Positions 15,410-31,939 of a stretch of 64,000 nt of DNA are shown here, piece by piece. This stretch comes from Terriglobia bacterium. GTDB lineage: Bacteria; Acidobacteriota; Terriglobia; Terriglobales; Acidobacteriaceae. Within the stretch, counting starts at the first letter, position 1; each line of letters starts with the position of its first letter. The notes under the pieces are model-generated. The model did not search any database, was not told the origin of the DNA, and saw only the letters and a list, made by a program, of their open reading frames with translations. The stretch is taken from contig JAIQGK010000006.1 in the NCBI GenBank assembly GCA_020072645.1, positions 186,001 through 250,000 of the forward strand, in the 5' to 3' direction. Made by a program: the position numbers and the translations under genes.

Positions 15410-15484
15410 GGCGCTATCGTCTAGGGGTTAGGACGTGAGATTCTCAATCTTAAAACCCGGGTTCGATTCCCGGTAGCGCTACCA
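15410..15484 (+). tRNA. tRNA-Glu (anticodon CTC), island integration site
   Basis: A cloverleaf can be drawn: acceptor 15410-15416 with 15474-15480 (first pair G-U), D-stem GTCT/GGAC, anticodon stem TGAGA/TCTTA with loop TTCTCAA (anticodon CTC), T-arm CCGGG-TTCGATT-CCCGG, discriminator A and encoded CCA. The 3' 35 nt are also the end of the serine recombinase reading frame on the other strand, so this is the left attachment site of the island. Confidence 0.93.
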
Positions 15485-16958
15485 AACCTTCTTTTTTGAT
15501 TGCCTTTGTTCCCATCCCATTGAAAAGTAAGCAGGTTACAGCGGTTCGATATTTCCCGTCTGAATAGGTGACGCCCTCGGGGAATAGAACCTGCTGCAAA
15601 CGCTGCTTCTGCTCAGATGGCGCGGCTTTCCAGAGGTTCGATGCATTCGTTAAAACCATCTCCGCGTAGTCCAGAACGGTCTCTATTTCGATTTCTTCGG
15701 CTTGTGCTTCCCGCAGCTCCATTTCGGCGAGGGTGAGGTCCTCAGTCAGTTTTGCGCGCATTTCCTTATACGTGGATGCATCGATGGCCTTTTGATAGAT
15801 AAATGCTTCTTCCAGCTTGGTCTTGTTTTTGCGCAGCTCCGCGATTTTCCGAGATACAACGCCTTGCACCTGCTGGCTGTCGCCTTGCTTCTTTCGCCAG
15901 ACATCCAGCACGATCTCGCGATACAGGCGCATATACCCGGCGTTCGGTTGCAACTGCCGCATGAACTCCTCAAATTGGCCCTCCATCGCGTCCTTGGTCA
16001 CGCGGATGCAGCCATCCTGACAATGATAGTAGGCGTAGTAGCGATTGCGGCCTTTGGACCAGCTTCCAGTGAGCGCCTCAGCGCAATATCCGCATTGCAC
16101 GAAACCCCGCAGCGGAAAATCGGCATGGCTGCGAGCGCGAGGGGTAACCGATACTGTCCTGCCGTTGAGGATCGCTTGCACCTTGTCGAAGATGGCCTCA
16201 GTCACCAAAGGCTGGAATTTGCCCGAAACGTCAATATTCCATTCAGGCACGACAATGCGACCGGAATAAACCGGCTTCCTGAGCGTCTGTGAGAACGTCT
16301 GAGAACTGAGGAATTTGCCTTTTTTGGTTCGCAACCCAAGCTGAGTAACCTTGCGGAGCACCTGCTCTCTCGTATGAAGGCCGGTCGCGAACTCCTCGAA
16401 TGCTTGGGTAATGAGGGGAGCGGAATGCTCGTCTGGCATGATCGTCTTTGCGCCGGTCGCATCTCGTCCAGCCCGATAACCAAGCGGAGGCGGAAACGTC
16501 CAGCAGCCACTTTGAAGACGCTGCTTCATACCTTTGACGCTCCGCTCGGTTCGTATGTCATTGTCCAACTGAGCGACTCCAGAGAGAACTACCTCCATAA
16601 ATCTCCCGGTTGAGGTCTCGTCAATCGGCTCAGTTACGGAGCGAAGTTGAACGCCCAAGCCGCTCAGAACGGCACGTAATTGAGCGTGATCCGTAGTATT
16701 TCGGGAAAACCTGTCCAGCTTGTGAACCACAACAGCTTTAATGTTTTTGTCTTCCCGACAATATTTGAGCATGGCCTTCAACTCAGTCCGGTTTGCTGTC
16801 TTTGCAGACTCGCCCTCTTCCACAAAGACCCTAGCCACCTTGAATCCCTGCTTCTCGCAATACTCCAGACATGCGGCTTTCTGACCGGCAAGGCTAGTGC
16901 CGCCCTTGGCCTGTTCCTCTGTCGATACGCGGGTATAAATTACGACTCGCTCGGCCAT
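15450..16958 (-). CDS. Large serine recombinase (site-specific integrase)
   Basis: 502 residues. The N-terminal resolvase/invertase catalytic domain carries nucleophile S12 (VIYTRVSTEEQ) and the arginine-rich HKLDRFSRNTTDH region. A recombinase domain (about 170-270) follows, then a zinc ribbon (CGYCAEAL ... YYHCQDGC), a long coiled coil (about 360-440) and a C-terminal tail. The last residues, LVALPGIEPGF, and the TAA stop are encoded by the reverse of tRNA-Glu, so the C-terminus is formed by the attachment site. It follows the HTH gene by 3 nt. Serine integrases seldom target tRNA genes. Confidence 0.93.
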   Translation of the reverse strand: MAERVVIYTRVSTEEQAKGGTSLAGQKAACLEYCEKQGFKVARVFVEEGESAKTANRTELKAMLKYCREDKNIKAVVVHKLDRFSRNTTDHAQLRAVLSGLGVQLRSVTEPIDETSTGRFMEVVLSGVAQLDNDIRTERSVKGMKQRLQSGCWTFPPPLGYRAGRDATGAKTIMPDEHSAPLITQAFEEFATGLHTREQVLRKVTQLGLRTKKGKFLSSQTFSQTLRKPVYSGRIVVPEWNIDVSGKFQPLVTEAIFDKVQAILNGRTVSVTPRARSHADFPLRGFVQCGYCAEALTGSWSKGRNRYYAYYHCQDGCIRVTKDAMEGQFEEFMRQLQPNAGYMRLYREIVLDVWRKKQGDSQQVQGVVSRKIAELRKNKTKLEEAFIYQKAIDASTYKEMRAKLTEDLTLAEMELREAQAEEIEIETVLDYAEMVLTNASNLWKAAPSEQKQRLQQVLFPEGVTYSDGKYRTAVTCLLFNGMGTKAIKKEGLVALPGIEPGF

Positions 16959-16961
16959 GAT

Positions 16962-17201
16962 TTACCTTGCCCTTCCTCTGGCTCTCTTCGGCTCGCGATG
17001 CCGGGTTCTTCGTCCATCGGTAAAACCGTCAACAATCGCCTTTGCTTTAAAGATGTCTTTGTCCTTCCAGAGCCGTACCGTCACCCCGCCCACTCGGGTT
17101 AGCGGAGGAACTGGGATTGTCCCGGCCACGATATAGCGGTTAATGGTCGCCATGCTCACGCCCAACAATTTCGCCGCCTCTCTAGTTGAGTAACTCGCCA
17201 T
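16962..17201 (-). CDS. Small HTH protein, excisionase-like (MerR/HTH_17 type)
   Basis: 79 residues beginning MASYSTREAAKLLGVSMATINRYI, a winged-HTH DNA-binding segment of the excisionase type, followed by VRLWKDKDIFKAK and a basic tail. The ATG at 17201 opens exactly on the domain; the in-frame start at 17213 adds only four residues. The stop lies 3 nt before the recombinase ATG, so the pair is coupled. It is a probable recombination directionality factor, or a transcriptional regulator of the element. Confidence 0.8.
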   Translation of the reverse strand: MASYSTREAAKLLGVSMATINRYIVAGTIPVPPLTRVGGVTVRLWKDKDIFKAKAIVDGFTDGRRTRHREPKRARGRAR

Positions 17202-17237
17202 AGTGATATACACCTATCTCATATATAGCATAAGATG

Positions 17238-17594: not shown

Positions 17595-18305
17595 GGCTCT
17601 CCTGGAGAGAATCGTGACATTTGAATCGGACCCATGACAACGTCAACAAACGAATAATTACGCGCTATCTAAAACGAGGGCCAACCCGCTCGAACGCGGG
17701 AACCGGATTGAAACCATCAGAATGTTTGGAAATGTCAGGTATAAGAATCGGATTTTTGGGCGTTTTACCACATCCCTAGGCACGATGAATGCCTAGCTGG
17801 TCAACCGCTTTAACGTGCGGGCTACGTTTCCGGTCGGTTCCACTTTACTTCTCAAGGCCGCCGTTCCGCATTATGTTTAACCGGTTGCGGAGAACCAATT
17901 TTTCATGGTGTTTTCTTCTGCCCTACCTGCCTAGCGGACGATACACGAGGGGCTTTGGTAGACTTCAACACCCCGTAAGCGCCGATGCTTCGCCGTGCGG
18001 TCGATCAAAGCCGCTGTTTCCGTCATACACATAAGCTCCTTGAATCGCCTACCCCTGGGATCAAGAAGGACGGGGGAACAACGCCTTTCCGCAACGATAA
18101 GATTTTGGGTCTTTCCACCTCGCAGTGCCCTGGAAGTCGCCGGGTTGGGCTACGAAGCTAGATTCAGCATAGGAGAAAATCTGGCGACACTCAAGTAAAA
18201 AATGAGCCCGACCGATATCTAAAATTCTGTCGTCTTTTGGAGTCATTCGGTGCAAGGTGTAAGCTATCCGGTCTCAACATTGTTCAACAGCCCGGAGTCT
18301 CCTGA
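17595..18305. other. Long non-coding stretch between integrase operon and type III RM operon
   Basis: About 710 nt with no convincing reading frame. It contains small perfect hairpins, such as CTAGGCA (17776-17782) with TGCCTAG (17790-17796), and a CCCGC/GCGGG stem near 17678-17694. It separates two divergent operons, so promoters for both must lie here; I could not assign a clear -35/-10 pair. A structured RNA is possible but not demonstrated. Confidence 0.5.
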
Positions 18306-21059
18306 ATGCCACGCAAGAGCACGACGCCCGCGCGCAGCAAGTCTGCCAAGAGTTACAAGCACCCTGAATCTGAAAGCCCCATGCGGCCCGAGGTCGGGAC
18401 GCAGGCGCAATTCAAGAAGAAGAAAGCGCCGCAAAAGTACCGTTACGATGATTCCCTCGCTCCGTCGCTGGAATGGGACGGGCAGAATCCCGCCCGAGAG
18501 CGAGGCGAGACAAGGATCGCCAGAGCTGAGGCAGAACTCAGCGAGGCCCGAAAGAAGCTCAACGGAAAGCCGGAGGCGAAAGAGGCTGCCGCGCATGTCT
18601 CTGCCGCTCAAAAGGCCGTCGCTGAACTGAAGGCCATGAGCAAGCCCTTCCTGAATTGGGCAGGGAAGGCCGAGCGGCTCTCTTTTGACGTTCCCACGCT
18701 GCCCTTGTTCATTCACGAGCGGCTTTCTACCAAGGCGATTCTGGACACGCTGAAGGGCCACAAGCGAGATAAGCAAACAGACTTGTTCGACCTCTTCGGC
18801 GATCCTCAGCACTCAATCACAGATCAAGTCCTCCGAGCGTACGAACATAAAGACAAATGGGTCAATCGCATGATCCTGGGCGACTCGCTCGTCGTAATGA
18901 ATTCTCTTTTGCGCTACGAGAATCTCGGCGGACAGGTGCAGATGATCTATATCGACCCGCCGTATGGAGTGAAGTTCGGCTCAAACTTCCAGCCGTTTGT
19001 ACGTAATCGAGATGTTAGCCACAACGACGACGATGATATGACTCGCGAACCTGAAATGGTCCAAGCCTATCGAGATACTTGGGAGTTGGGGCTGCACTCG
19101 TATCTAGCGTATCTGCGTGACCGATTTCTTCTGGCCCGTGATTTGCTTTCCATAAGTGGCAGTATCTTTGTCCAGATCAGTGACGAAAACCTTCACCACT
19201 TGCGTGAGTTGCTTGATGAGATATTTGGAAGTGAGAATTTTTGCTCTGTCATAAGCATTAAGAAGACCAGCGGACTTGGCGCTACATTGCTTCAGAGTAC
19301 CCAGGATTTCTTACTCTGGTATGCCAAGGACAAGAGTCACGTAAAGTTCCACCGGCTATTTGCTGATAAAGCCGAAGCCGCCGAAGGTGACTCACATTAC
19401 ACCAGCGATGAATCAGGACGCTTGTACACCCTCAGCGATCTCACAGCACAGAACAACAACGTCCGGTCTTGTCTGTACGACTTCACGTTTGAAGGGCAAG
19501 TCTTCCACCTGCCAAGAGGCAGGCAGTGGAAAACAACCGAAGAGGGGATGAAACGTTTGGTAGAGGCGAAGCGAGTCGTCGCGTCTGGAAATTCGATCCG
19601 ATATAAACGATTTCTCGATGATTTCGCGATGAGTCCAATTACTGATACCTGGCATGACATAGGCGGCAGTGTCCAGAGTCGCTCTGATCCAAAAATTTAT
19701 GTGGTGCAAACTGGTACGACCATCGTCCAGCGTTGTTTGCTAATGACAACCGATCCCGGCGAGTTGGTCCTCGATCCGACTTGCGGGAGTGGTACCACAG
19801 CATATTGCGCAGAAATGTGGGGAAGACGTTGGCTCACTATTGATACGAGTCGGGTACCCCTTGCCCTCGCACGCCAGCGTTTGCTCACCGCAACTTTTCA
19901 TTGGTGGGAATTAACCGATGAAAGCCGAGGCCCCACTGCTGGCTTTCGCTATGAACGTAAGCAAAATCGAAAAGGAGAACACATTGGCGGTATTGTGCCG
20001 CACATAACCCTTGAGTCATTTGCGAAAGATGAACCAGCCGAGGAAGAGGTCATAGTTGATCGACCGGAAGTATTTACAAATATCACGCGGGTTACCGGCC
20101 CGTTCTGCGTCGAGGGCACTATTCCCACTCCCATTGATTGGGAACAGACGAGCGCAAGCTCTTCAGAGACCGATGCGGACCTCTCTTTTGTTGACCGCAT
20201 GATGGAAATTTTGCGGAAATCGCCTGTTCTAAGGTTGGAAGGAAATCGCACTGTAACGCTCAAGAACATCCGTCCACCGGCAAAGAGCCTCTCCCTTTCT
20301 GCCGAGGCCACGCTTAACGGCAGCAATGGAAACGGAAAATCTAAGTCCCTGCCGGAAGCAGTACAGGAAGCAGCCGAAGCCAGCGGCAAGTCATTGCCAT
20401 TCTCACAGAAGACTGTCGCCCTGGTCTTCGGCCCGGAAAATGGAGCAGTGAGCGAGAAGCTCGCATACGAAGCCGCACGGGAAGCCCGCGCTAAAGATTA
20501 TTTCCATCTATACGTGATTGGCTTCGCGATCCAGCCAAACGCACGGCAGCTAATCGAGAAATGCGACGAGGTGGTCGGGATTTCCGCGACCTACATTCAG
20601 GCGACGCCCGACCTGATGATGGGCGACCTGCTCAAGAACATGCGTTCAAGCCAGGTCTTCAGCGTCTGCGGTATGCCTGAGGCTGAATTGCGTCGCGTTA
20701 AACCTCAGAGCAAGGACGACGCGCCGAAATATGAAGTGCAGCTTCTCGGGATGGACGTATTCGACCCTGCGACGATGGAGGTCATTCATCGAAAGGGGGA
20801 AGAGGTCCCGGCATGGTTCCTGGACACGGATTACAACGGCCTCTGCTTTCATGTCTCCCAAGCTTTCTTCCCACGTACCGGCGCATGGGAGAGCCTGAAA
20901 AAAGCTCTCAAGGGAGAATACGAGGAATCCGTCTGGGACCATCTTGCAGGAACCACGAGCACACCTTTTGAAGCCGGAGACCAAATTGCCGTAAAGGTTA
21001 TTGACGACCGAGGGAATGAATTGTTGATCGTGAAAGCTCTGAGCGAGGCAAAGAGATGA
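18306..21059 (+). CDS. Type III restriction-modification DNA methyltransferase (Mod)
   Basis: 917 residues, an N6-adenine methyltransferase of the beta class. The catalytic motif DPPY is at 217-220 (MIYIDPPYGVKFG) and the AdoMet-binding motif LDPTCGSGTTA begins near D490, in the order expected for type III Mod. A lysine-rich leader and a coiled region precede it, and the target-recognition region lies between and after the motifs. The protein is longer than typical Mod (600-700 residues) because of a C-terminal region of about 350 residues after the methylase core. GGAG lies shortly upstream of the ATG. It overlaps res by 4 nt. Confidence 0.93.
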   Translation: MPRKSTTPARSKSAKSYKHPESESPMRPEVGTQAQFKKKKAPQKYRYDDSLAPSLEWDGQNPARERGETRIARAEAELSEARKKLNGKPEAKEAAAHVSAAQKAVAELKAMSKPFLNWAGKAERLSFDVPTLPLFIHERLSTKAILDTLKGHKRDKQTDLFDLFGDPQHSITDQVLRAYEHKDKWVNRMILGDSLVVMNSLLRYENLGGQVQMIYIDPPYGVKFGSNFQPFVRNRDVSHNDDDDMTREPEMVQAYRDTWELGLHSYLAYLRDRFLLARDLLSISGSIFVQISDENLHHLRELLDEIFGSENFCSVISIKKTSGLGATLLQSTQDFLLWYAKDKSHVKFHRLFADKAEAAEGDSHYTSDESGRLYTLSDLTAQNNNVRSCLYDFTFEGQVFHLPRGRQWKTTEEGMKRLVEAKRVVASGNSIRYKRFLDDFAMSPITDTWHDIGGSVQSRSDPKIYVVQTGTTIVQRCLLMTTDPGELVLDPTCGSGTTAYCAEMWGRRWLTIDTSRVPLALARQRLLTATFHWWELTDESRGPTAGFRYERKQNRKGEHIGGIVPHITLESFAKDEPAEEEVIVDRPEVFTNITRVTGPFCVEGTIPTPIDWEQTSASSSETDADLSFVDRMMEILRKSPVLRLEGNRTVTLKNIRPPAKSLSLSAEATLNGSNGNGKSKSLPEAVQEAAEASGKSLPFSQKTVALVFGPENGAVSEKLAYEAAREARAKDYFHLYVIGFAIQPNARQLIEKCDEVVGISATYIQATPDLMMGDLLKNMRSSQVFSVCGMPEAELRRVKPQSKDDAPKYEVQLLGMDVFDPATMEVIHRKGEEVPAWFLDTDYNGLCFHVSQAFFPRTGAWESLKKALKGEYEESVWDHLAGTTSTPFEAGDQIAVKVIDDRGNELLIVKALSEAKR

Positions 21060-24000
21060 GCGGCTACACAGCGCCTGAAGTTGACGAGCCAATTCTCAAT
21101 ACGCCGTTTGAGAAGCCGCTGCGCTACTGGTATATCCAGGAAGGCGAGCCGCCGGTCAAACGCGAAGGCAAGCGCCGGCCAGCGATTGTGTTTCCGCCTC
21201 GCGACCAGCGAGAGCCTTGGCAGACCGATGAAAAATTGCTCAAGGTCTCTCAGGAATATCCCTCGGGGTACGATCTCGCTCTCGTCAATCTAGTTCGCGA
21301 GCGCGTGGAGAACTGGCAGTCGCAAGGTTGTCCTGGAGTGACTCGCACGACGCTTGAACTGATCCAGTGGTGGACACGCGACGGAAGAGAGAAGCGGCTC
21401 TTCTTCGCGCAATTGGAAGCCGCTCTCACAATCATTTTTCTGACCGAAGCGAGAGCCGATTTTCTTCAAGGAATTTCAATACCTCGCGACGAGCCGAGCG
21501 ACGACCGAAAGGCCGAAGGCTATACCGGCTTTCAGCGATACGCCTGCAAGATGGCGACCGGCAGCGGCAAGACTACGGTAATGGGGATGCTTACGGCCTG
21601 GAGCATTCTCAATAAGGTGAACAATCGCAGCGACGCGAGGTTCTCAGACGTGGTCCTTGCTGTTTGTCCAAATGTGACAATCCGGGACCGTCTACAAGAG
21701 CTAAATCCCGAGAGGGGCGAAGCGAGTATCTATCTCAGCCGTGATCTTGTCCCGCCTCATCTCATGCCTTCACTTACACAGGGCAAAGTCCTGGTCACGA
21801 ACTGGCATATCTTTGAACCGCAAACCACGCAAACCGGAGGGGTCGGCGGAAAGGTAATAAAGGCTGGCGTTCCTGTCTGGAGCAAGGAAAAAATCCTCAT
21901 CGGTAGGAAGACTCAGACCGCACGGGGAAAGCGTTATTTCACCTTGGCCGCTCTCGAAGCAATGAAAGCTCAGGGCAAAGTGGACGTGGTTCCCGGCAGC
22001 GAAGAATACGACGAGACCGGCAATTTAGTAAAAGTCGAAATAGGTACGCTGCGGTACGTTGAGAGCGACACATCCGTCATCAATCGTGTGATTGGTCGCG
22101 AGGTTGGCGGCAAACAGAACATCCTTGTTCTGAATGACGAAGCTCATCATGCGTATAGACTTAGACGCGACGAGCCGCAAACCGGAGAAGAGGACGAATT
22201 CGGCGAAACGGAAGAGGCTGACGAGTTTTTCCGCGAGGCCACCGTGTGGATTGATGGCCTCGACAAGATCCAAAAGCTACGCGGCATCAATGTCTGCATA
22301 GACCTCTCAGCAACGCCTTATTTCCTTGGGCGAGTCGGCCAGGAAACAAATAAACCATTTCCCTGGGTCGTGAGTGACTTCGGCCTGATTGACGCCATAG
22401 AAGCCGGACTAGTGAAAATTCCACAACTCGCGGTACGCGACACGACCGGCGCTGAGATACCGGGCTATTTCAATATCTGGCAATGGATTCTGCCGCAACT
22501 GACTCCAGCCGAGCGAGGCGGAAAGAAGGGAAGCCCGAAGCCGGAAGCCATCCTCAAGTTTGCTCATCACCCGATTGCGATCCTAGGCGCGAAATGGGAA
22601 AAGGAACGCGAGGAATGGAAAAAAGAGGGAGTGGACCCGCGTCCCCCAGTTTTCATTCTGGTTTGCAAGAATACGGCAATCGCGAAAGTAATTTATGAGT
22701 GGCTGGCGAATGACGCTGAGCCTGTCGGAATTCCCCCTGCAAAAATAGACGGCTTTCGCAACAAGAACGGTCAGATCAATACCATTCGCGTCGATTCCAA
22801 AGTCGTGCATGAGACCGATACGGGAGAAGCGAAGAGCGACGAATCGCGATGGATGCGAATCACTCTCGACACGGTGGGCAAAATGGATTGGACCCGCGAC
22901 CGGCAGGGAAGGGCGATCTACCCCGAGGGATTTGAAGAACTGGCAAAGAAACTTGAGCGCCCGTTGCATCCTCCCGGACGAGATATTCGCTGCATAGTAA
23001 GCGTCGGAATGCTTACCGAGGGCTGGGACTGCAATACCGTGACTCAGATCGTCGGTTTGCGTCCTTTCATGTCGCAATTGCTCTGCGAACAAGTAGTCGG
23101 ACGCGGACTTCGCCGAGCTAGTTACGAAATCCGCGAAGACGGGAAATTCACGGAAGAAGTCGCTCAGGTCTTCGGAGTGCCTTTTGAGGTTATTCCGTTC
23201 AAAGCTAGCAAGACCGGAACATCAGCCCCAAGAGTTAAGCGGTTTCACGTTCATGCTTTGCCTCAGCGGGCAGAGTTTGAAATCAGATTTCCTCGCGTTG
23301 AAGGTTACACTCAGGCGATTCGTAACAAAGTAACTGTGGACTGGACCAGTGTTCCCAAACTCGTCCTTCAACCTGACCGTATTCCGCCCGAAGTCCAGAT
23401 GAAGGGGCTGAGTGTCAATAACAAAGGGCGATTGTCGCTAATGGGACCGGGACGAATCAGCGACGCATCTTTACAGGAATTTCGCGCTAACCGCAGATTG
23501 CAGGAACTCGTTTTTGATCTGGCAAAGGCATTTACCCGCGACTGTCTCGCGCAGCCACAATGCATAATTCCGAGTCACGTCCTATTCCCGCAACTCGTCC
23601 AGATCGTTTCTCGGTACCTGCAAGCGAGAGTCGAAGTGCGTCCACCGGCAGACCTGAAAGACCTCTTCCTCGCTCCTTATTACGGCTGGCTGGTCGAAAT
23701 TCTGCTGGAAGCCCTGCGGCCCGACACCTCAGCCGGAGAAGCGCCGGAGATTCCACGATATGAATCCACTCGCGGCCCTGGTTCAACCGCAGACGTGGAT
23801 TACTGGACGAGCCGCGATCCTGTCGAAGTGCTTCGCAGTCACGTCAATTACGTGGTTCCCGATACCAAGAGATGGGAGCAGTCTGCCGCTTACTACATTG
23901 ACAAACATCCGGCAGTGCATTCATTCGTCAAAAACGCGGGACTCGGCTTCGCCATTCCGTACCTGTACAACGGCCAAATGCACGATTACATGCCGGACTT

Positions 24001-24211
24001 CATCGTTCGCCTGAAAAGCGACTCGCCCGTTCACATGATCTTGGAAACCAAGGGATACGACCCCCTGGAGGAAGTGAAGAAAGACGCGGCAAACCGCTGG
24101 GTTTCGGCTGTGAATGCTGAGGGAAGCTATGGAAAATGGTTTTATCGTGTCGTGAAAAAGACTACCGATGTTTCAGGGACGCTTTCTGAGCAGCAAATTG
24201 AAAGCGCTTAG
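21056..24211 (+). CDS. Type III restriction enzyme, Res (DEAD/DEAH helicase-nuclease)
   Basis: 1051 residues. A superfamily 2 motor: Walker A MATGSGKTT (from about residue 166), a DEAH-type motif NDEAHHAYR (D361), SATPYF (motif III), and motif VI-like QVVGRGLRR. The C-terminal PD-(D/E)xK nuclease reads DYMPDFIVRL ... ILETKGYD (D about 981, E/K about 997-999). Res cleaves DNA after translocation from two unmethylated sites together with Mod. The start ATGA overlaps the mod stop. The protein is intact, with no frameshift. Confidence 0.93.
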   Translation: MSGYTAPEVDEPILNTPFEKPLRYWYIQEGEPPVKREGKRRPAIVFPPRDQREPWQTDEKLLKVSQEYPSGYDLALVNLVRERVENWQSQGCPGVTRTTLELIQWWTRDGREKRLFFAQLEAALTIIFLTEARADFLQGISIPRDEPSDDRKAEGYTGFQRYACKMATGSGKTTVMGMLTAWSILNKVNNRSDARFSDVVLAVCPNVTIRDRLQELNPERGEASIYLSRDLVPPHLMPSLTQGKVLVTNWHIFEPQTTQTGGVGGKVIKAGVPVWSKEKILIGRKTQTARGKRYFTLAALEAMKAQGKVDVVPGSEEYDETGNLVKVEIGTLRYVESDTSVINRVIGREVGGKQNILVLNDEAHHAYRLRRDEPQTGEEDEFGETEEADEFFREATVWIDGLDKIQKLRGINVCIDLSATPYFLGRVGQETNKPFPWVVSDFGLIDAIEAGLVKIPQLAVRDTTGAEIPGYFNIWQWILPQLTPAERGGKKGSPKPEAILKFAHHPIAILGAKWEKEREEWKKEGVDPRPPVFILVCKNTAIAKVIYEWLANDAEPVGIPPAKIDGFRNKNGQINTIRVDSKVVHETDTGEAKSDESRWMRITLDTVGKMDWTRDRQGRAIYPEGFEELAKKLERPLHPPGRDIRCIVSVGMLTEGWDCNTVTQIVGLRPFMSQLLCEQVVGRGLRRASYEIREDGKFTEEVAQVFGVPFEVIPFKASKTGTSAPRVKRFHVHALPQRAEFEIRFPRVEGYTQAIRNKVTVDWTSVPKLVLQPDRIPPEVQMKGLSVNNKGRLSLMGPGRISDASLQEFRANRRLQELVFDLAKAFTRDCLAQPQCIIPSHVLFPQLVQIVSRYLQARVEVRPPADLKDLFLAPYYGWLVEILLEALRPDTSAGEAPEIPRYESTRGPGSTADVDYWTSRDPVEVLRSHVNYVVPDTKRWEQSAAYYIDKHPAVHSFVKNAGLGFAIPYLYNGQMHDYMPDFIVRLKSDSPVHMILETKGYDPLEEVKKDAANRWVSAVNAEGSYGKWFYRVVKKTTDVSGTLSEQQIESA

Positions 24212-24219
24212 GACGAGAA

Positions 24220-25332
24220 ATGGCTTCAATTCGCCAAATCCGCGGAGCACTACTAGAAGAGATTATCCTGTTTTTGCTCGAACACTCGGGATACAGAATT
24301 GTGCTCCTCGGCGAAGAAGGGACTCACGACGGTCGGGCTGGGCTGGAAGTAGAAGGACGAGGTTCTCGCCATCAAATTGATGCTCTTGCTACGCCACTGC
24401 ACGCCCAAGCTTTTGTTTATCCCATCCGGCTCATCGTGGAAGCAAAATGCGAAATCAAGCCGGTACGATTAGGGACGATCCGTTCTGTGGTCGGAACCGT
24501 AGCTGACATTAATCAAAACTACTTTTCTGCGCCGGTCAGACGTGGAAAGAGCGTCAGAATGCAACGCTTCAACTATCATGCGGCAATGTTTGCAGCAAAC
24601 GGCTACTCAGACAACACGGAACGATTTGCGATGGCCCATCAAGTGTTCTTGATTGATTATTCGCATGTTGCCAGCATGAGACCTGTTGTCGATGCTCTAT
24701 TTGAGCTGGACATTGACGACATTGGGGAACTCGCTGAGAACGGGAGAAGGCTCGGACTGACGGAGATTCGCCTTGGATTTAGGGCACTATTGCGAACACG
24801 GGAGGTCCAAGCTGCTGAAGAAATATTTTCGCTTCGAGGCACAGCCAAGATTCAAGAACGGCTCTTGCCTGCACTCCAGCAACTTCGCGGCTCCTATTAC
24901 GGCATGATAGAGAGTATTTACCCTGTTCATCTAGTTTCGCGCAGGCCGATACCGACACGATTAATTCGCGAACAGGGAGAAATTCCCTGTGAGATTCGAG
25001 TAAGTGACGACGATCAAACCTGGGCATTCGAGCCTTCGCGGATTCCACCAAATTCACCCGATTTCTTCCGCTTAGAATTCTCAATTCCCGATTTCATTGC
25101 TGACATGCTAAATGTCACTACCGGACCGGAAGGCAGGCGAATTCCTGGTTGGCGACATCTCGTAAACATCAAACGCGAGTACATGCGTTACATTGACGTT
25201 ACAGCCGTGTTGGATGGTCGCTTACTTGGTTTCAAATTAACTTTAGACGAAGATTGGCTTAACCAGTATGCGGAGAACCGGGAGAGGCTAGCGCGTCGGG
25301 CGAGACGGAACCGTGAATTTATGGAAGAGTAA
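24220..25332 (+). CDS. Restriction-endonuclease-like protein accompanying the type III RM genes
   Basis: 370 residues. The N-terminal 80 residues look like an Mrr/PD-(D/E)xK nuclease core: helix LLEEIILFLLEHSGY, then RHQIDALA (acidic residue) and RLIVEAKCE (E-x-K). The remainder is alpha/beta with no family I recognise. It starts 8 nt after res and reads as the third gene of the operon, so it is probably an accessory nuclease or a regulator of the system. Catalysis is inferred from motif spacing only. Confidence 0.7.
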   Translation: MASIRQIRGALLEEIILFLLEHSGYRIVLLGEEGTHDGRAGLEVEGRGSRHQIDALATPLHAQAFVYPIRLIVEAKCEIKPVRLGTIRSVVGTVADINQNYFSAPVRRGKSVRMQRFNYHAAMFAANGYSDNTERFAMAHQVFLIDYSHVASMRPVVDALFELDIDDIGELAENGRRLGLTEIRLGFRALLRTREVQAAEEIFSLRGTAKIQERLLPALQQLRGSYYGMIESIYPVHLVSRRPIPTRLIREQGEIPCEIRVSDDDQTWAFEPSRIPPNSPDFFRLEFSIPDFIADMLNVTTGPEGRRIPGWRHLVNIKREYMRYIDVTAVLDGRLLGFKLTLDEDWLNQYAENRERLARRARRNREFMEE

Positions 25333-25381
25333 GTGGCCATTGAAACAGCAAGCCTTTTGGCGGGGTGAGAATCAGCGCTTT

Positions 25382-27109
25382 TCACTGATACATTGCAAAC
25401 AAAGAAGCGATTTCGTTCACATATGACTCTTTTCGCACGACGGCATCCCAAAGCGCATTCAGAACTGCAGTTGGTGCCGCATCAGGCACTCTACCATTCT
25501 GGAGAGCTTCTTTCACTTTGGTTTTGGCGTCATCATGTTCAGTGACTGTGTACGGTCGGGGAACCAAGGCTTGAATATCGCGGCTTAAGGTGTTACCGAT
25601 TGTTTCGTCTCCCACTGTCAGGAGCTTAGATTGGAACGGAACATCAAACCCCCTGGCTTTTAGAAATGCAAGACAGCAGCGTAATCTATTAGCAAATGGA
25701 GGGTGCGTCTGCGTGCCCTTGCGGCGCGACTCGCTCAAAGTGCCGGTTGCGAACCTTGCCATGGCATAAAGAAATGCCGGTCCAGCAATCAGCGCTGCAA
25801 CGCAATCGGCAAGGAGCTCAAGTGCCCACGCACGGGCCATTTCAGCCTCCTGCATTTTGCTAGGCAAATCATCTTCGGCCATCTGGCTAATTTCCTCGAT
25901 AGTTGTCGTGAGTGAATCTTTTTCCGCACGGTATTTGCGATCGGCCAATTTCTCAACGAGTAGAGAGTGATCGAGAACCAGATGAGCTATTTCGTGTGCA
26001 AGCACCGGCAGAGCCCCCAATCGCAATCGGAATTGAACTGGTATCGTGGCAAGCACCGTTTTTTCAAAAGTGTCCGACCAGTCCGTAGAATATCTAACAA
26101 AAAAAGGATCGTTATGGATGGTAAACGCGTCCGCAATGACAGGAATAACTTTCGTTCTAGCAATTCCGGACCTACTTACAAATTCCTCCGCGAGATTTCT
26201 GGCAGCTCGCAAGAAAAAAGGAGCAACCGCCTCCGAATAAGAGGCAGTCTCGGCGACGGGTTCTGTCAACAAGTTTTTCGGTGAGGCGTATTGATTGGCT
26301 TGTCGAATGAGTCTATCGAAATTACTTGAAAAGGCATTAATCTGAGCGCTCAAATTATCTACCAACCCTAGAGCAATGGCTTGTTCGCGTCGATCATCCG
26401 CAAAGACCTCTAGAAACTCTCGCAGAGTCTCTCTGTTTTTCATGATCGTATTCTCGATGACTCGTAACTCCTGCGGCGGAGTGCCGCCTACAGAATGTCG
26501 CCAAACCGTGCCGAGCGTCTTTAACTGTTCGGCGATTACTGCGGAACTGCTATTTAAGACTTCTCTTATTTGCGCATTTAAAGGGTCATAAGCTCCTTGA
26601 CTCGGTTTGCGGGGTTCTCGTAGCGATAAAACTTCATGGCAGCACACGAGACCTGTGAGAGGGCGAGGTAACTGTTGGTGCTTCCGAAATAGTTGGAGTC
26701 CTTCCGCGCTCGGCAAAATTCCACAAATCAAATTCGGTGCCACTGCGCAAAAAATGTTCCCAAGCTCCTCGTCGGCATTTAACAGGCCACTTTTCTTTGG
26801 ATCACTTGCGTCATAGAAGAGATATGCGTCTCTCTTTGGAGGGACCAGAGCTGAACCCTCCAGAATTCCCGCAATCACGGATGAGCCGTCGATCATCTCA
26901 TGGGCTTTGTGTAACCAAGCCTGCACGGGTTCAGCATGTTGTTCACCCACAGCAATGGCCACTGTTACTTCGGGGGATGCATACACCCAAACAGACAGCC
27001 CTTCGACGGGAGAAAGACTAGAAAGGACTGTCTCTGACTGTGATACGCGGGAAAAGAACAGGCCAGCGTAGCTGTCCGCGAAATGTAGGTGAGTTAGCAC
27101 AATTGTCAA
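25382..27109 (-). CDS. Zincin-type metalloprotease-like protein of unknown function
   Basis: 575 residues. The central region has a zinc-protease motif VLAHEIAHLVLDH (HExxH near residue 370), followed about 60 residues later by ALELLADCVAALIAG, which supplies a glutamate/aspartate as the likely third ligand, in the manner of gluzincins. The N-terminal 350 residues are alpha/beta then helical. No signal peptide or TM segment is visible, so it is cytosolic. It converges on the RM operon and diverges from the membrane protein gene at 27259. A protease role in a conflict system is inference. Confidence 0.72.
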   Translation of the reverse strand: MTIVLTHLHFADSYAGLFFSRVSQSETVLSSLSPVEGLSVWVYASPEVTVAIAVGEQHAEPVQAWLHKAHEMIDGSSVIAGILEGSALVPPKRDAYLFYDASDPKKSGLLNADEELGNIFCAVAPNLICGILPSAEGLQLFRKHQQLPRPLTGLVCCHEVLSLREPRKPSQGAYDPLNAQIREVLNSSSAVIAEQLKTLGTVWRHSVGGTPPQELRVIENTIMKNRETLREFLEVFADDRREQAIALGLVDNLSAQINAFSSNFDRLIRQANQYASPKNLLTEPVAETASYSEAVAPFFLRAARNLAEEFVSRSGIARTKVIPVIADAFTIHNDPFFVRYSTDWSDTFEKTVLATIPVQFRLRLGALPVLAHEIAHLVLDHSLLVEKLADRKYRAEKDSLTTTIEEISQMAEDDLPSKMQEAEMARAWALELLADCVAALIAGPAFLYAMARFATGTLSESRRKGTQTHPPFANRLRCCLAFLKARGFDVPFQSKLLTVGDETIGNTLSRDIQALVPRPYTVTEHDDAKTKVKEALQNGRVPDAAPTAVLNALWDAVVRKESYVNEIASLFAMYQ

Positions 27110-27258
27110 CTCGAAAGGTGTCCAATATGGTACTCGAAATCGCGAGCGCTTGGAGCGTCGGTTCTGCTGTCTAAGAATCTCTTCAGTAAGTTGTGAAATT
27201 GTTAACCCGAATCTGCCCGCGTGCTAAGATTCCCGATGTTCTACGGCATCGGAAGACA

Positions 27259-27879
27259 ATGGAAGATGAAAGAATGGACCAAAATAATATTGGTGATTCA
27301 ATTTTGAAGGAAATGCACAAGGCATTCCTAGAAGCATTGCGCCAACGCGAACAGGAAATATTTACGTATCTGACGACACTTGGACTGGCCTTCGGCGGAT
27401 TTGCCTGGTTACTAGTCCAACAGAACTCGAAAGAACCCCCTCCCACAACGATCCCATTTCTATTCGGAACAATGGGCGTTTTGTTCCTCCTCTGCCTAGG
27501 AGCTGTTTATGCTGCCGCCCTTGGTTACAACTATCGTTATCTCACGTTTCAACTCGCAAAAATTGAGGACTTTTTGAAAATCAAAGAAGTCATTCTGCGC
27601 GGTTGGCCTAGAACAGTTCGGGAATTTGAAAAATACTCGCGATGGTGCGATCCTCCGGAGATTATCAAAGTTTTTTGGTTCTCTTTCATAGCGGGAATTC
27701 CCTTCGTCACTTGGTTCGCTGCCAAAGTAAGCGGGTTGCCGGTTCGTATTTGGCTGTGGGGTGGCGTCTTTTTCTGCATCGGCACATTAAGCCCAGGCTA
27801 TTTTGCACTCCGGTTCGGTCGGCTGTTGAGAAAGGAAACCCATTGGTCGGAGCGGCAGAGCGAAACAGCAAGAAGTTAG
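27259..27879 (+). CDS. Predicted four-TM membrane protein
   Basis: About 206 residues. An acidic/helical N-terminus (ILKEMHKAFLEALRQREQEI) precedes two hydrophobic helices (LGLAFGGFAWLLV, LFGTMGVLFLLCLGAVYAAALGY), a cytosolic loop of about 60 residues and two further helices (FWFSFIAGIPFVTWFAA, WGGVFFCIGTLSPGYFAL). The frame opens at 27193, but the ATG at 27259 (or 27274) is likelier. It diverges from the metalloprotease gene. I do not recognise a family; a membrane effector partnered with the protease is possible. Confidence 0.6.
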   Translation: MEDERMDQNNIGDSILKEMHKAFLEALRQREQEIFTYLTTLGLAFGGFAWLLVQQNSKEPPPTTIPFLFGTMGVLFLLCLGAVYAAALGYNYRYLTFQLAKIEDFLKIKEVILRGWPRTVREFEKYSRWCDPPEIIKVFWFSFIAGIPFVTWFAAKVSGLPVRIWLWGGVFFCIGTLSPGYFALRFGRLLRKETHWSERQSETARS

Positions 27880-27898
27880 CGCGACAATTCTCGTTCTT

Positions 27899-28489
27899 CT
27901 AAACGCTTCGGGCTAACAGCTTAAGAATCATCGGAGGCCAGCTGTGGTCTTCCGCTTCATCTGCTTTTTGCTTCCAGCGCCAATATGTCCGCCAGTGCAT
28001 CCCTTTGGGTTTCTGCGGGAATTCATCGGCAACGCAAGGCGTTCCACCGAGTTTTTCGCGAATTGCCTGGGCTTTGAGAAGCATTCGACCATGACGCGTT
28101 TCACTCTGGCTGTCATACGCTAGATTGTGACAACGCCTGCAAGCGAAGATGGAACCGCCGTACAGGATCGCCACACGTCGCCCGCATCCTAAAGCGGGAC
28201 ATCGGAACCAAGCTCGCTCACCACCGTAGTTGCACCGCGTCCACTCTACCGACACGGGATATTCTTTTTGCTCCCATTCATCGCTTCCCCGATCCCTCGT
28301 GCGATATGACAGTGTGACGTGTCCATCCCACGCGCTCAAGTTGATGGAAGCGAACTGTTCACCACGTCGCGACCATTTTTGCGAAGAGCCCGTGCCCGGA
28401 CGCAAATATCCATTCCGTTGAAGATACCGCACGTCCAGAAACAAATATCCCGAGGTCGTTGACCGTCCGCTGCCGCTATACCTACTCAT
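27899..28489 (-). CDS. Zinc-ribbon protein of unknown function
   Basis: 196 residues. A serine/glycine-rich start is followed by a beta-rich part (SINLSAWDGHVTLSYRTR), a C4 zinc ribbon (WFRCPALGCGRRVAILYGG ... FACRRCHNLAYDSQ) and a basic helical end (HWRTYWRWKQKADE). Proteins with this CRRCHNLAYxSQ signature are common in mobile elements; the function is unknown. AAAGG precedes the ATG. A 16-bp repeat copy (28505-28520) lies just upstream. Confidence 0.72.
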   Translation of the reverse strand: MSRYSGSGRSTTSGYLFLDVRYLQRNGYLRPGTGSSQKWSRRGEQFASINLSAWDGHVTLSYRTRDRGSDEWEQKEYPVSVEWTRCNYGGERAWFRCPALGCGRRVAILYGGSIFACRRCHNLAYDSQSETRHGRMLLKAQAIREKLGGTPCVADEFPQKPKGMHWRTYWRWKQKADEAEDHSWPPMILKLLARSV

Positions 28490-28504
28490 GATTGCCTTTC
28501 GGTG

Positions 28505-28520
28505 CCATTTCCGAAATCAT
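28505..28520. repeat. 16-bp direct repeat, left copy
   Basis: CCATTTCCGAAATCAT, identical to 28890-28905. The two copies bracket a single small gene (28553-28864). The core ATTTCCGAAAT is nearly palindromic. Confidence 0.8.
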
Positions 28521-28552
28521 AAGACAAAAAATGCTTTCCAACATGCGGCAAT

Positions 28553-28864
28553 TTGGGTGCGCCCACTAAGGGGAATCTGATTTCGTACATCAAAAGACTC
28601 ATGGAAATACAAAAAGATCTGACGGAAGAGATCGTGATAGAAATCGCATTCGCCATCAAAAAATTGGGCGGCGAACCTGGGGCTCTGAATCTGACCGACA
28701 CGTGGGCTGTTAATCGTTTACTCGAATTTTTAGGAGCGGATATTTACTTGATGGCAGCCGTGGGCTCTTGGCGCGACACTCTTTCCGACGATGAGGTTCT
28801 AGCGGACTTACGGAGATGGAATCGCGGTGAATCGCTTGGCCCAGAAATCTCTTTTGTTAAGTGA
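28553..28864 (+). CDS. Small hypothetical protein between 16-bp direct repeats
   Basis: Up to 103 residues. The frame opens at a TTG (28553); an internal ATG at 28601 (MEIQKDLTEEIVIEIAFAIK) is an alternative, and neither has a good ribosome-binding site. The product is helical and acidic/basic mixed, with NLTDTWAVNRLLEFLGADIY in the middle and no cysteine motif. No family recognised. Its bracketing by direct repeats suggests a cassette-like acquisition. Confidence 0.5.
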   Translation: MGAPTKGNLISYIKRLMEIQKDLTEEIVIEIAFAIKKLGGEPGALNLTDTWAVNRLLEFLGADIYLMAAVGSWRDTLSDDEVLADLRRWNRGESLGPEISFVK

Positions 28865-28889
28865 TTTCAGGCGGTGAGGGCTACGCTTT

Positions 28890-28905
28890 CCATTTCCGAA
28901 ATCAT
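28890..28905. repeat. 16-bp direct repeat, right copy
   Basis: CCATTTCCGAAATCAT, identical to 28505-28520 and 385 nt away in the same orientation, just after the stop of the small gene at 28864. Confidence 0.8.
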
Positions 28906-29221
28906 TAGGTAAGTTACCTGTTTTTCAAACAAGCTTTTCCGCTCACTGGAACCTGATAAAACTTGAGTTTTCTTTAAGCTACGTGTTCAACCAACGACCC
29001 GTTTTTCACCATGCCGGGGGGTGATCCCACCCGGTGCCCTTTGTGGGACTCCAGTAACCTTTTCTCGCTTGTTAAATGCCTGTTCTCAGGCATTGATATC
29101 AACGTCCCCGCGACTCTGACACGCCTGTGATCCAATCGGTGCCATGACCGATTCGCAGTTCACTGCTACGTTCACAGTTCTGAGTGAAATGCTCTCGGCA
29201 AGGGCTGCACCTCAGCTACAA
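28906..29221. other. Non-coding stretch with hairpins
   Basis: No supported gene. A perfect 8-bp hairpin with a 4-nt loop, AATGCCTG (29075-29082) / CAGGCATT (29087-29094), and a GGGTG/CACCC hairpin near 29019-29032 are visible. The spacing suggests a structured transcript or a degraded region of the island. Confidence 0.45.
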
Positions 29222-29248
29222 AGAAAAAAGGGCACCGAGGAGATGCCC
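29222..29248 (-). terminator. Rho-independent terminator for the gene at 29292
   Basis: Read on the minus strand, GGGCA (29248-29244) and TGCCC (29234-29230) form a stem followed by TTTTTTCT (29229-29222). It stands about 45 nt after the stop of the 114-residue gene. Confidence 0.75.
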
Positions 29249-29291
29249 CTTAACGTGATATGGAGAGTGCCTTCCTGTTTTGCAGAATTTT

Positions 29292-29636
29292 CTACTTGGT
29301 TGTTCTCTTTCGTTGTTTGGCAAGTTGCTTTTTGCGTTCTTTGGCGTGAATGAAAACGTCGTCGGGATCGCGGAGATGCTTTTCGTATTTGTCTCTGGCC
29401 TTTCCGTAACGTCCCCAATCATCAAGCTCAAGCTGATGCAGGTGTTCGAGAAATTCTTGGTTAAATTCGGCTTGCAGCTCTTGGGTGAAACTCGGAAAAA
29501 GTTTGGCCGCTTTTGATTTGAACAGTCCGGTTTTCTGAAGGGTTTGAAGGTGCTGGACAATTCCAGCAAAGGCCATGTTGAGAGATGACAGAGTTTCATA
29601 AACCTCCGTCTTTTGGGTAACATCGAAGGTAGCCAT
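29292..29636 (-). CDS. Hypothetical helical protein
   Basis: 114 residues: a helical N-terminal part (VYETLSSLNMAFAGIVQHLQ), an acidic/aromatic middle (FLEHLHQLELDDWGRYGKAR) and a basic C-terminal tail (KERKKQLAKQRKRTTK). It has a good terminator and an AGAGG-like ribosome-binding site. No family recognised. It follows the HTH gene at 29711-29953 in the same direction, 74 nt apart. Confidence 0.6.
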   Translation of the reverse strand: MATFDVTQKTEVYETLSSLNMAFAGIVQHLQTLQKTGLFKSKAAKLFPSFTQELQAEFNQEFLEHLHQLELDDWGRYGKARDKYEKHLRDPDDVFIHAKERKKQLAKQRKRTTK

Positions 29637-29710
29637 TGGTCGCCTCTAATCCAGGTGATTTTTTGGTTAGGGCGCGTTCGGTGCTCATTACACCGGGCGC
29701 TGCCCGTTAG

Positions 29711-29953
29711 TTAAGGTTTGGACTTGCGTCCCGTTTGTTTCTTTCGTTGTTTCTGATACCGGGTCTTTCTGCCGTTGGCAATCTTCGGCAGTAAGGCCCG
29801 GACTCGTTCTATGTCCTCTTCTGTCCAGCCGTGCAAACTGGCGCTTCCAACCTTCATGATCTCGGGTGCTGGCACTTTTTTCGATGCGACATACCGGCTG
29901 AGAGTCTTGGGAGCCAATCCGAGTTTTGCAGCGGCTTGCCTTGTAGAGAACAT
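29711..29953 (-). CDS. Small HTH DNA-binding protein (excisionase-like)
   Basis: 80 residues starting MFSTRQAAAKLGLAPKTLSRYV, an HTH_17/excisionase-type fold, followed by GWTEEDIERVRALLPK and a highly basic tail. It is similar in plan, though not in detail, to the HTH protein at 16962-17201 at the opposite end of the island. It could be the directionality factor of the element whose recombinase is now a remnant at 30721. Confidence 0.75.
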   Translation of the reverse strand: MFSTRQAAAKLGLAPKTLSRYVASKKVPAPEIMKVGSASLHGWTEEDIERVRALLPKIANGRKTRYQKQRKKQTGRKSKP

Positions 29954-30194
29954 GTGCGCCAGTGTGACAGATTGCTTTACTGAGAGTCAAGCGAATCGCC
30001 GATCTCAAATTTTCTCAGTCTCTAGGTGTTTGGCTTCCGCCGGTTTTTTGACCATCCCCCTTGGGGTGTCCTGCCACTCGGTTCGCTCGGGTCCCCGGAA
30101 AAAGAATTCTTTTATGCCTGTTTACAGTAAGAGCGTCAAGGGCCATTTAGTTCAACAAATGTTAACAGGCCCTCAGTAACGGCATGAGAGCCGC

Positions 30195-30422
30195 TCAGGT
30201 CGCCTTGTGACGCGGTACAAGGGTATTTGGCGTTACTCTCTGAATCCGGTGACCGCACAAAGGACAAGAACCAGCTTTCGCTTGCTGCCTTTTTGCTTGA
30301 ATGCGTTCTCGCTTGTCTGCATTCTTACAGTCAGGCCCGCAAAAATGCCGATGGTAGTCAGGTGCTCCGTCCTTGCGGACGAGACGCCTTGCGCAACCTT
30401 CGCGAGCGCAGATTCTCGGCAT
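30195..30422 (-). CDS. Small zinc-finger protein
   Basis: 75 residues with two cysteine clusters: CAREGC ... HFCGPDCK (near 5-31) and CPLCGH (near 53-58), separated by a basic helix (KRERIQAKRQQAKAG). The pattern suggests one or two zinc sites. No family recognised. It is the last credible gene before the right end of the island. Confidence 0.55.
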   Translation of the reverse strand: MPRICAREGCARRLVRKDGAPDYHRHFCGPDCKNADKRERIQAKRQQAKAGSCPLCGHRIQRVTPNTLVPRHKAT

Positions 30423-30473
30423 TGATTAAGCCCTCATGAATCAAAAGAATCAGACCCGGTGAATACGTGGCTG

Positions 30474-30500
30474 CTGGGAGAAGGGACACCCTTCTCCCAG
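30474..30500. other. Perfect 12-bp hairpin near the island right end
   Basis: CTGGGAGAAGGG (30474-30485) pairs completely with CCCTTCTCCCAG (30489-30500) around a 3-nt loop. No long T-run follows (GTTTTG about 10 nt later). It may be a terminator or a recombination-related palindrome. Confidence 0.6.
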
Positions 30501-30720
30501 TCCCTCATCCCGTTTTGTTAGTGAAAAAATGCCCGTCTTCGGAGGACCAATAGAGGTTCAATGCAGTCTTGGGAGCAGGGAAGATGCGGCAACCGGCGTC
30601 TTTGGCCGTCCTGGGGCGCTTTCCTGAGAACTCTAGGCTGCACGGAAGAGGCCCTCACGCCTCAAGAGGTCCATTTCCCGCAAGCCAGTGACAATTTGGT
30701 TCCAACCGGCAACCGTTTGG

Positions 30721-30850
30721 GCTACCAACCCTTCCTTTGCGACCGCGTTTGTTTATTCCACTGAAAAGCAAGCAAGTTACAGCGGTTCGATAATTTCCTT
30801 CGGAATAGTCACGCCCTGCGCGCCAAGCTCGCCTCGGTTCTGGTACATCA
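30721..30850 (-). pseudogene. Remnant of a serine recombinase C-terminus (island right boundary)
   Basis: Read on the minus strand, this segment encodes YSEGNYRTAVTCLLFSG, matching YSDGKYRTAVTCLLFNG near the C-terminus of the intact recombinase (about 15510-15570). The nucleotide similarity runs from GCTACCAA (30721-30728, also 15478-15485) for about 95 nt. Upstream the match continues only in a different frame (GAQGVT versus FPEGVT), so the copy is frameshifted, and the rest of the gene is missing. It is not identical to the intact gene and therefore derives from a related, older element. Confidence 0.75.
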
Positions 30851-30924: not shown

Positions 30925-31734
30925 CTATTCCAATCCCGCCTCATGCATACGCTGATTGTGGTTCGCATAAGAGATCTGCTGGATGCGTTCCCGATCGAGC
31001 CCGAGTGGATTGGGCGTAAATACAAAATCCGTCCGGCGAGGAATGTTCGCGGCCTGTGTATTGAATAATTCACGCACTGGCGCCACATGCTCCGGATACT
31101 TCATTAACTGTTCGCGAAGGAAATCCATGCCGTGAACCAGGTGGCGGCCTTCGTCGGCGCGAATTAGCTTGATTCCTTCAAGCAGGCGAGGGAACATTCC
31201 GGTTTTGGCCAGCAAGTCTTCAAAAAATTCATACCCGGTGAGCGCCATTGTGCCTTCCACCACGGCCATGTAATGGCACGCGAAGAGGCTAAGCGCCAAG
31301 GGAAGGTCGCCTTTGCCGCTGGTGAGCGCCTGACCAATGGTTTCACCTCGCTGGCGGAGTTCGTCGAGCAGGACGCCTTTGTATTCCGGGACGAGGTAAG
31401 CCGATGTATCCACCTTGCCGCAGACTTCCTGAAAATAGCGTTCAAAGAACTCAGCGTGCTTTACTTCTTCAAAAATCTGGGTGGAAAGAAACATGCGGCG
31501 ATCGAGATCAGGCATGGCCAGCATGAACCAGGCGAGTGTGTCTGATACGCTGACTTCGCCTTCATAAAAGAGAGCACAGGTCTTGATGAGCTGCTCGCGC
31601 TGATCTGGATTCAGCATCTGCCAGTGCGCTTTGTCTTCCGTCAGGTCAATCTTTGCCGGGTCCCATACGCCAAGCGTTTTGGCGATGTTATAAAGCTGGC
31701 GTGGAGATTTGCTGGTATGAGCGGCCGTGGACAT
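30925..31734 (-). CDS. R2-like ligand-binding oxidase (ferritin-like, Mn/Fe type)
   Basis: 269 residues, related to ribonucleotide reductase R2 but of the R2lox type. Metal ligands read E60 (FYEGE), E90/H93 (EEVKHAEF), E160 (AVVEGTM) and E195/H198 (DEGRHL). V63, three residues after the first ligand, and Y155, five before the fourth, sit where R2lox proteins form the Val-Tyr ether cross-link. The ATG at 31734 is chosen over 31830 because GGAGG lies about 10 nt upstream. R2lox binds a long-chain fatty acid; its physiological substrate is unknown. It is the first core gene after the island. Confidence 0.88.
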   Translation of the reverse strand: MSTAAHTSKSPRQLYNIAKTLGVWDPAKIDLTEDKAHWQMLNPDQREQLIKTCALFYEGEVSVSDTLAWFMLAMPDLDRRMFLSTQIFEEVKHAEFFERYFQEVCGKVDTSAYLVPEYKGVLLDELRQRGETIGQALTSGKGDLPLALSLFACHYMAVVEGTMALTGYEFFEDLLAKTGMFPRLLEGIKLIRADEGRHLVHGMDFLREQLMKYPEHVAPVRELFNTQAANIPRRTDFVFTPNPLGLDRERIQQISYANHNQRMHEAGLE

Positions 31735-31939
31735 AAATAAAGCCTCCGCTGAAGCAATAACAGTATCAAAAAATTCGATGCCGGGAGCATGCGGGACAAA
31801 GTGCACTGCTTCTGCCACTGCTATCGGCACGTGAGCGGCTTACAATTTGTTAGACCGAAAAAAATGAGCGGGAGAATAATAAATCTTGCGCCTCCGGCAT
31901 GGGTACAATCATCTGATCAACGATTATTCAGGAGGCACC

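Follow-up and report, generated by a model that had tools for sequence, protein, structure and literature searches.

Why does an island inserted at a tRNA gene carry, at its far end, a broken piece of a second serine recombinase gene, and where does that island stop? We addressed these questions in a window of 64,000 nucleotides (the whole stretch of DNA that was analysed; G000:C6:186001-250000, G000 being the source genome), the features of which are collected in Table 1. The element itself is referred to here as E1, and the related element of which a fragment survives beyond it as E2. The element ends, the split coding sequence, the tandem junction and their recurrence were established by comparison of sequences. 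Our reading, to which we assign a probability of roughly 0.8, is that E1 integrated itself by splitting its own recombinase gene and came to abut the related E2, which decayed and was later joined to the gene for an R2-like ligand-binding oxidase (R2lox).

Table 1. Features of the tRNA-Glu island in the window, and tail exon units elsewhere (L-numbered loci)
Feature	Position	Strand	Basis
tRNA-Glu(CTC), integration target	15410..15484	+	ARAGORN
Left core copy GCTACCAA, attL of E1	15478..15485	+	sequence
E1 large serine recombinase, integrated form, 502 aa	15450..16958	-	Resolvase PF00239, Recombinase PF07508, Zn_ribbon_recom PF13408
Small HTH_17/excisionase-like protein, directly upstream of recombinase	16962..17213	-	PF12728; TIGR01764 below its cut-off
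Type III-like methyltransferase	18306-21059	+	PADLOC MTase_III 5.5e-141
BPTD_3080-family restriction enzyme	21056-24211	+	NF046055 1028.8 bits, cut-off 800
Third cargo protein of the 18306..25332 set	24220-25332	+	sequence
Cargo protein with HEIAHLVLDH (HExxH-type) motif	25382..27109	-	sequence
Second small HTH protein near E1 right end	29711..29953	-	PF12728 23.3 bits, gathering score 27
Displaced 3' end (tail exon) of E1 recombinase gene	30633..30720	-	with core encodes LVAQTVAGWNQIVTGLREMDLLRREGLFRAA*; fused ORF; 31 homologous tails
Right core copy GCTACCAA, E1 end	30721..30728	+	G007 homology 30658-30727, then ancestral downstream sequence
E2 scar: decayed, truncated C-terminal fragment of second serine recombinase	30728-~30822	-	similarity to E1 recombinase
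Junction of E2 scar and host DNA other than original right tRNA flank	30823..30827	.	G006 alignment starts 30827
R2lox gene, host flank	30925..31830	-	family and neighbourhood comparison
Tail exon + core units with toxin-antitoxin genes	L173 6482-8864; L210 905-2749; L212 9546-11660		
Tail exon + core units with toxin-antitoxin genes	L213 14194-15042; L214 3879-4862; L211 649-2637		

Extent of the element at tRNA-Glu

At the left end, 7 nt of the core copy (GCTACCA) are the last nucleotides of tRNA-Glu(CTC), and the integrated E1 recombinase terminates in VALPGIEPGF*, which is the antisense reading of the tRNA gene. The protein contains an N-terminal resolvase catalytic domain (PF00239, 1.7e-34), a recombinase domain (PF07508, 44.9 bits) and a zinc beta-ribbon that passes narrowly (PF13408, 25.6 against a cut-off of 25.3), and matches TP901-1 integrase and resolvase structures. 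The small HTH protein encoded directly upstream, for which a similar ORF is also present in G007, is a candidate directionality factor. The second small HTH protein was considered as a part of E2 and rejected, because upstream genes of E2 would be expected on the opposite side, beyond 30822. The cargo encoded at 18306-25332 constitutes a restriction-modification set, the third protein of which has a motif, IVEAKC, that hints at a PD-(D/E)xK nuclease; family searches (Pfam, PADLOC, NCBIfam) returned no match for the HExxH-type protein that follows.

The first-pass annotation had proposed looking for relatives with an empty site or with only one of two elements. In G006, the closest congener found (about 89% nucleotide identity), the same tRNA-Glu is unoccupied; homology to the window stops at 15486, where G006 continues into downstream sequence common to G004, and alignment resumes at 30827, at R2lox. 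The tRNA-Glu of G004 is taken up by a tailed prophage that encodes a tyrosine integrase and has a 5' tRNA fragment at its far end (L037 2131-17499); it is therefore not an empty site, and its downstream sequence, once restored, agrees with that of G006. G007 carries the same type of element at this tRNA, with a recombinase 78% identical to that of E1. A search with the right end of the window identified a G007 stretch matching 30658-30727 at 84.5%, past the core of which lies CACCTGATTTTTCCTGCACTT, the ancestral flank as at the empty G006 site; the ends of the G007 element lie on different contigs, both of which stop inside the element. E1 therefore comprises 15485-30727, and the E2 scar stands in for the host half of attR. 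A further relative (G005:C710) carries part of the right end (30552-30669, 87%), its contig end being divergent. The attL, attR and empty site fit a core of at most 8 bp, and a long direct repeat of the tRNA 3' end was rejected, as merely 8 bp are common to both ends.

Beyond the core, 15470-15577 and 30713-30817 are 78.7% identical over 108 nt (BLAST E about 1e-17 to 1e-19) and constitute the largest direct repeat in the island; their local alignment score is 84, whereas none of 500 shuffles exceeded 29. This agrees with the earlier claims that similarity starts at GCTACCAA in both places and runs about 95 nt into recombinase coding sequence. Relative to E1, the right-hand copy has a 1-nt deletion upstream of YSEGNYRTAVTCLLFSG, itself present, and a 2-nt gap downstream, and its description as a frameshifted tail was therefore correct. 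The same annotation had argued that this was not a simple attR, and the simple attR reading is indeed rejected: a true attR is seen in G007, and the window differs from it in having a junction with a related, decayed second element. The right limit placed at 30850 did not hold. Recombinase similarity stops near 30822 and host DNA alignable to G006 starts at 30827, so that 30850 falls within host intergenic DNA.

The displaced 3' end of the recombinase gene

The first-pass account of the right end was incomplete in one respect, in that the 88 nt before the core, which it missed, are the native 3' end of the E1 recombinase gene. When the ends of E1 are rejoined at the core, the reading frame extends to LVAQTVAGWNQIVTGLREMDLLRREGLFRAA*, giving a total of 522 aa. 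The rejoined ends of the G007 element also give 522 aa, ending in LVAQTVANWNQTVSWLQEMDLLRRAGSFRAA* with the stop codon at the same place as in G000, and the two fused frames differ at 6, 6 and 13 first, second and third codon positions, respectively (i.e. mostly third). Comparison of the two ends places the attachment site inside the recombinase gene, which is cut, as is characteristic of self-disrupting integrases.

Among 31 homologous tails, the recombinase frame has a mean BLOSUM62 score of 2.26 and no stops, compared with 0.14 and 0.05, and 28 and 10 stops, in the other forward frames, and pairwise differences by codon position are 0.48/0.33/0.63. In this pattern of substitution, the 31 tail exons show coding constraint at the protein level. 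All 31 right ends have a core that matches the target tRNA, followed by 11 nt and AGTTGGAACC, a nearly invariant DNA decamer just after the core; given this near-invariance, part of the conservation probably reflects attP recognition and not protein, with the decamer probably serving also as a recognition motif.

Of 396 genomes of the phylum, 24 encode the recombinase (E<=1e-70) and 30 contain tails detected with the tail profile. Both occur in 16 genomes where 1.8 are expected (p 6e-15), and co-occurrence persists when genomes used to train the profile are removed (p 3e-8). The C-terminal residues of most complete recombinases are read antisense from a tRNA gene (Glu, Lys, Ala or Gln), and the geometry of recombinase and tail recurs at tRNA-Glu, -Lys and -Ala. 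In the islands of G111, G684, G620, G721 and G728, and in two islands of G859, recombinase and tail share a strand and occupy opposite ends, separated by about 4-16 kb, and the same layout is found in three genomes held out of profile building (G676, G824 and G879). The island in G111, which is from a different family, is a 5-kb element with the homologous tail at its distal end. The tail profile identified no tail in G708 and G853, and a search for tails in the islands of distant recombinases (G154, G241, G001 and G395) gave nothing convincing. Relatives of E1 among phages and plasmids were solely below 60% identity, viral contigs yielded none, and a peptide-pattern search of GTDB representatives for close relatives returned one distant match. 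In G584 the C-terminus of a full-length relative (L178 4397-5917) is continuous and not tRNA-encoded (MVAPTVATLNPREFVSGLLRLRDRIAA), and the adjoining DNA yielded no tRNA; a tandem arrangement or an alternative site may account for this form.

The alternative that survives best, although we consider it unlikely, is ordinary accretion, i.e. two serine-recombinase elements at one tRNA, with the far-side ORF being an attP arm devoid of protein function. The near-invariance of AGTTGGAACC as DNA in the 31 right ends is compatible with such an arm, as is the fact that integrated recombinases, with 491 native residues, retain all catalytic and DNA-binding domains. Past AGTTGGAACC, however, the frame is free of stops in all 31 sequences, variation is lowest at codon position 2 and highest at position 3, and the stop codon has the same position in both G000 and G007, whereas attP arms need no open frame.

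Under the self-splitting reading, the E1 recombinase would insert E1 into the 3' end of tRNA-Glu through an attP x attB-like crossover inside its own gene. In the excised circle, a form that is predicted and was not observed, the gene would be continuous, encoding the 522-aa protein; upon integration, the last ~29 codons would be displaced to the island's opposite end, and the remaining gene would run into the tRNA to give the 502-aa form. The 522-aa form would presumably be the one acting in integration, and splitting of the gene could make integration self-limiting. We propose that the native-tailed enzyme would act from the circle, and that integration would down-regulate or redirect the recombinase.

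The second element and the right flank

A second related element could integrate next to the first by attP x attL or attP x attR recombination, and E1 lies directly against the left end of E2, in our reading because one integrated into the junction made by the other. Their junction is thus an attP-like hybrid composed of the E1 tail exon, the core and the 3' end of the E2 recombinase gene, and an intact E2 gene would therefore have been completed by the E1 exon. E2 later decayed through frameshifts and truncation, and a deletion or rearrangement joined what is left of it, the final ~95 bp, to the R2lox region. With the host half of its attR gone, normal excision of E1 is probably blocked.

Recombinase remnants also lie behind tails in G684 (two places), G859, G721 and G620. 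Two of these remnants, that of G721 and the one at the second G684 junction, continue in frame into the tail of the element before them; in the window the frames of E2 and of the E1 tail disagree because of decay. At G684_1, G859b and G620 the remnants lie a few hundred bases further on, and these cases are therefore comparable to the window and not identical to it. The cut-off E1 tail joined to the decayed tail of E2 indicates that islands of the E1 type cut their own recombinase gene on insertion and stack one behind another.

The composite island had been drawn as running cleanly to 30850, and a relative with an empty site had been expected to show its limits. G006 does place the boundaries at 15486 and 30827, but the sequences that flank them are not neighbours in that genome and occur at separate locations; a deletion or rearrangement has therefore eliminated most of E2 together with the original right flank. 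In the relatives examined the R2lox flank was not found beside tRNA-Glu, so that the island also sits on a rearrangement; R2lox instead adjoins a GGDEF gene in G004, G005, G006 and G007. Between these two genes G006 has a 273-aa gene (L016 5764-6585), for which the other genomes searched gave no counterpart. Searches of G000 located neither the ancestral tRNA flank nor a second tail exon, and the remainder of E2, including its right end, has therefore been lost along with the old flank, while R2lox was brought next to the E2 scar by deletion or rearrangement.

A flank whose break lies a few bases from the E2 scar, next to an R2lox that relatives do not have beside tRNA-Glu, is also what a contig mis-join at 30823-30827 would produce, in which case the right flank would be uninformative. 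We regard this as improbable, since the GGDEF gene expected beside R2lox sits inside another contig of G000 (C4:310071-312535 of 336803), joined to response-regulator genes, and the separation of R2lox from GGDEF is therefore visible in two places; moreover, the tail-core-E2 part is independent of this junction.

Over the same stretch, E2 shares 74% identity with E1 and 73% with G007, compared with 86% between E1 and G007, and E2 therefore branched off before the E1 and G007 elements separated. This earlier split is the ground for rejecting, as very improbable indeed, the idea that 30721-30822 duplicates the recombinase end of E1 itself (a tandem E1 copy followed by deletion), even though the fragment is of the same family and at the same position relative to the core. 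E2 may be the older occupant, as the first-pass annotation had it, but insertion of E2 into the right junction of E1 would leave the same arrangement; what the comparison shows is the decay of E2 and its early divergence.

Relation to known systems and small modules

The closest parallel is provided by the ssrA islands of Dehalococcoides, in which the gene for a CcrB-like serine recombinase likewise overlaps attL and an RNA gene with its 3' end, and which form tandem islands downstream of the RNA gene, some without their own integration module (PMC3146451). McMurdie et al. (2011) suggested that dsiB may be complete solely in the circular form or where it follows a neighbouring island with a 3' fragment (PMC3146451). 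The E1 family shows the same overlap of the recombinase 3' end with an RNA gene and the same tandem islands; it differs in targeting tRNA-Glu/Lys/Ala/Gln and not tmRNA (ssrA), in having no recognised DsiA-ParB-Mom module, and in that the 3' fragment is identified and has coding constraint. The 2011 suggestion, apparently without follow-up in the open-access papers searched, thus gains sequence evidence.

SCC/SCCmec elements (CcrAB, CcrC) form composite islands through repeated insertion at one site. Their large serine recombinases are broadly of one type with that of E1, for which the best NCBIfam model is CcrB, but the E1 protein scores 126.9 bits against a family cut-off of 900 and thus falls outside the Ccr family, and E1 has a tRNA target and not rlmH, a single recombinase, and a split gene.

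Archaeal suicidal integrases of the SSV type use tRNA-type targets. As in E1, their recombination site lies in the integrase gene, which is cut on integration, and a 2021 review describes self-disrupting recombinases as exclusive to archaea (PMC8371274). Those enzymes are tyrosine recombinases in which the cut separates the N-terminal and catalytic C-terminal parts, whereas the bacterial serine recombinase studied here loses just a ~29-aa C-terminal tail; it has serine recombinase domains only, and not the tyrosine-type Phage_integr_3. Search of the open-access literature, with subscription journals mostly outside its range, found no bacterial serine self-splitting case, which is not proof of absence. 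Judged from its genes, the E1 family is a bacterial serine-recombinase family with self-disrupting logic, present in tens of genomes of one phylum, and it would add a bacterial serine case to integrases described as archaeal and tyrosine-type only (PMC8371274). Two questions become testable, namely whether integration switches the direction or activity of the enzyme, and how tandem islands keep or regain mobility. The family provides recombinases targeting tRNA 3' ends, and core + N11 + AGTTGGAACC + WLRxxxxLR can be used as a search key for the right ends of islands that are hard to delimit.

Tails also occur in succession at 0.7-1.5 kb in G620, G742, G891, G852, G782 and G906, and in some of the arrays the tails are separated by toxin-antitoxin modules of 0.8-1.5 kb. 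At least one ORF of a toxin-antitoxin family (PIN, MazE, RHH, HigB, Gp49, ParE, HicB) is present in 8 of the 10 inter-tail intervals under 2 kb, the module ORFs having been picked by eye and checked with Pfam afterwards. Like integron cassette arrays, these modules are in tandem, several have toxin-antitoxin genes, and their boundaries resemble recombination sites; unlike integrons, they are tRNA-anchored, have a recombinase tail exon at the boundary, and are associated with serine recombinases rather than with an IntI tyrosine recombinase, with one array adjoining a tyrosine integrase. We tentatively suggest, at somewhat less than even odds, a wider scheme in which the circle would produce the native-tailed enzyme and the integrated island the tRNA-tailed one, tandem insertion would pass the tail exon on, and toxin-antitoxin modules without a recombinase would be stacked in trans in an integron-like manner.

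The listed units, with toxin-antitoxin genes between their tails (HigB/HTH, PIN/MazE, PIN/RHH, ParE, HicB), resemble a cassette array at tRNA genes. At L210 2669-4204 the frame of a tyrosine integrase crosses the core and continues into the third of the array's tail exons, and tyrosine and serine elements therefore share junctions. In the 60 nt preceding the core at L168 8402 and at L173 6559 and 8864 there is a GC-rich, inverted-repeat-like sequence that ends in GAGCGAAGG immediately ahead of the core, at tails that have no recombinase end directly preceding them.
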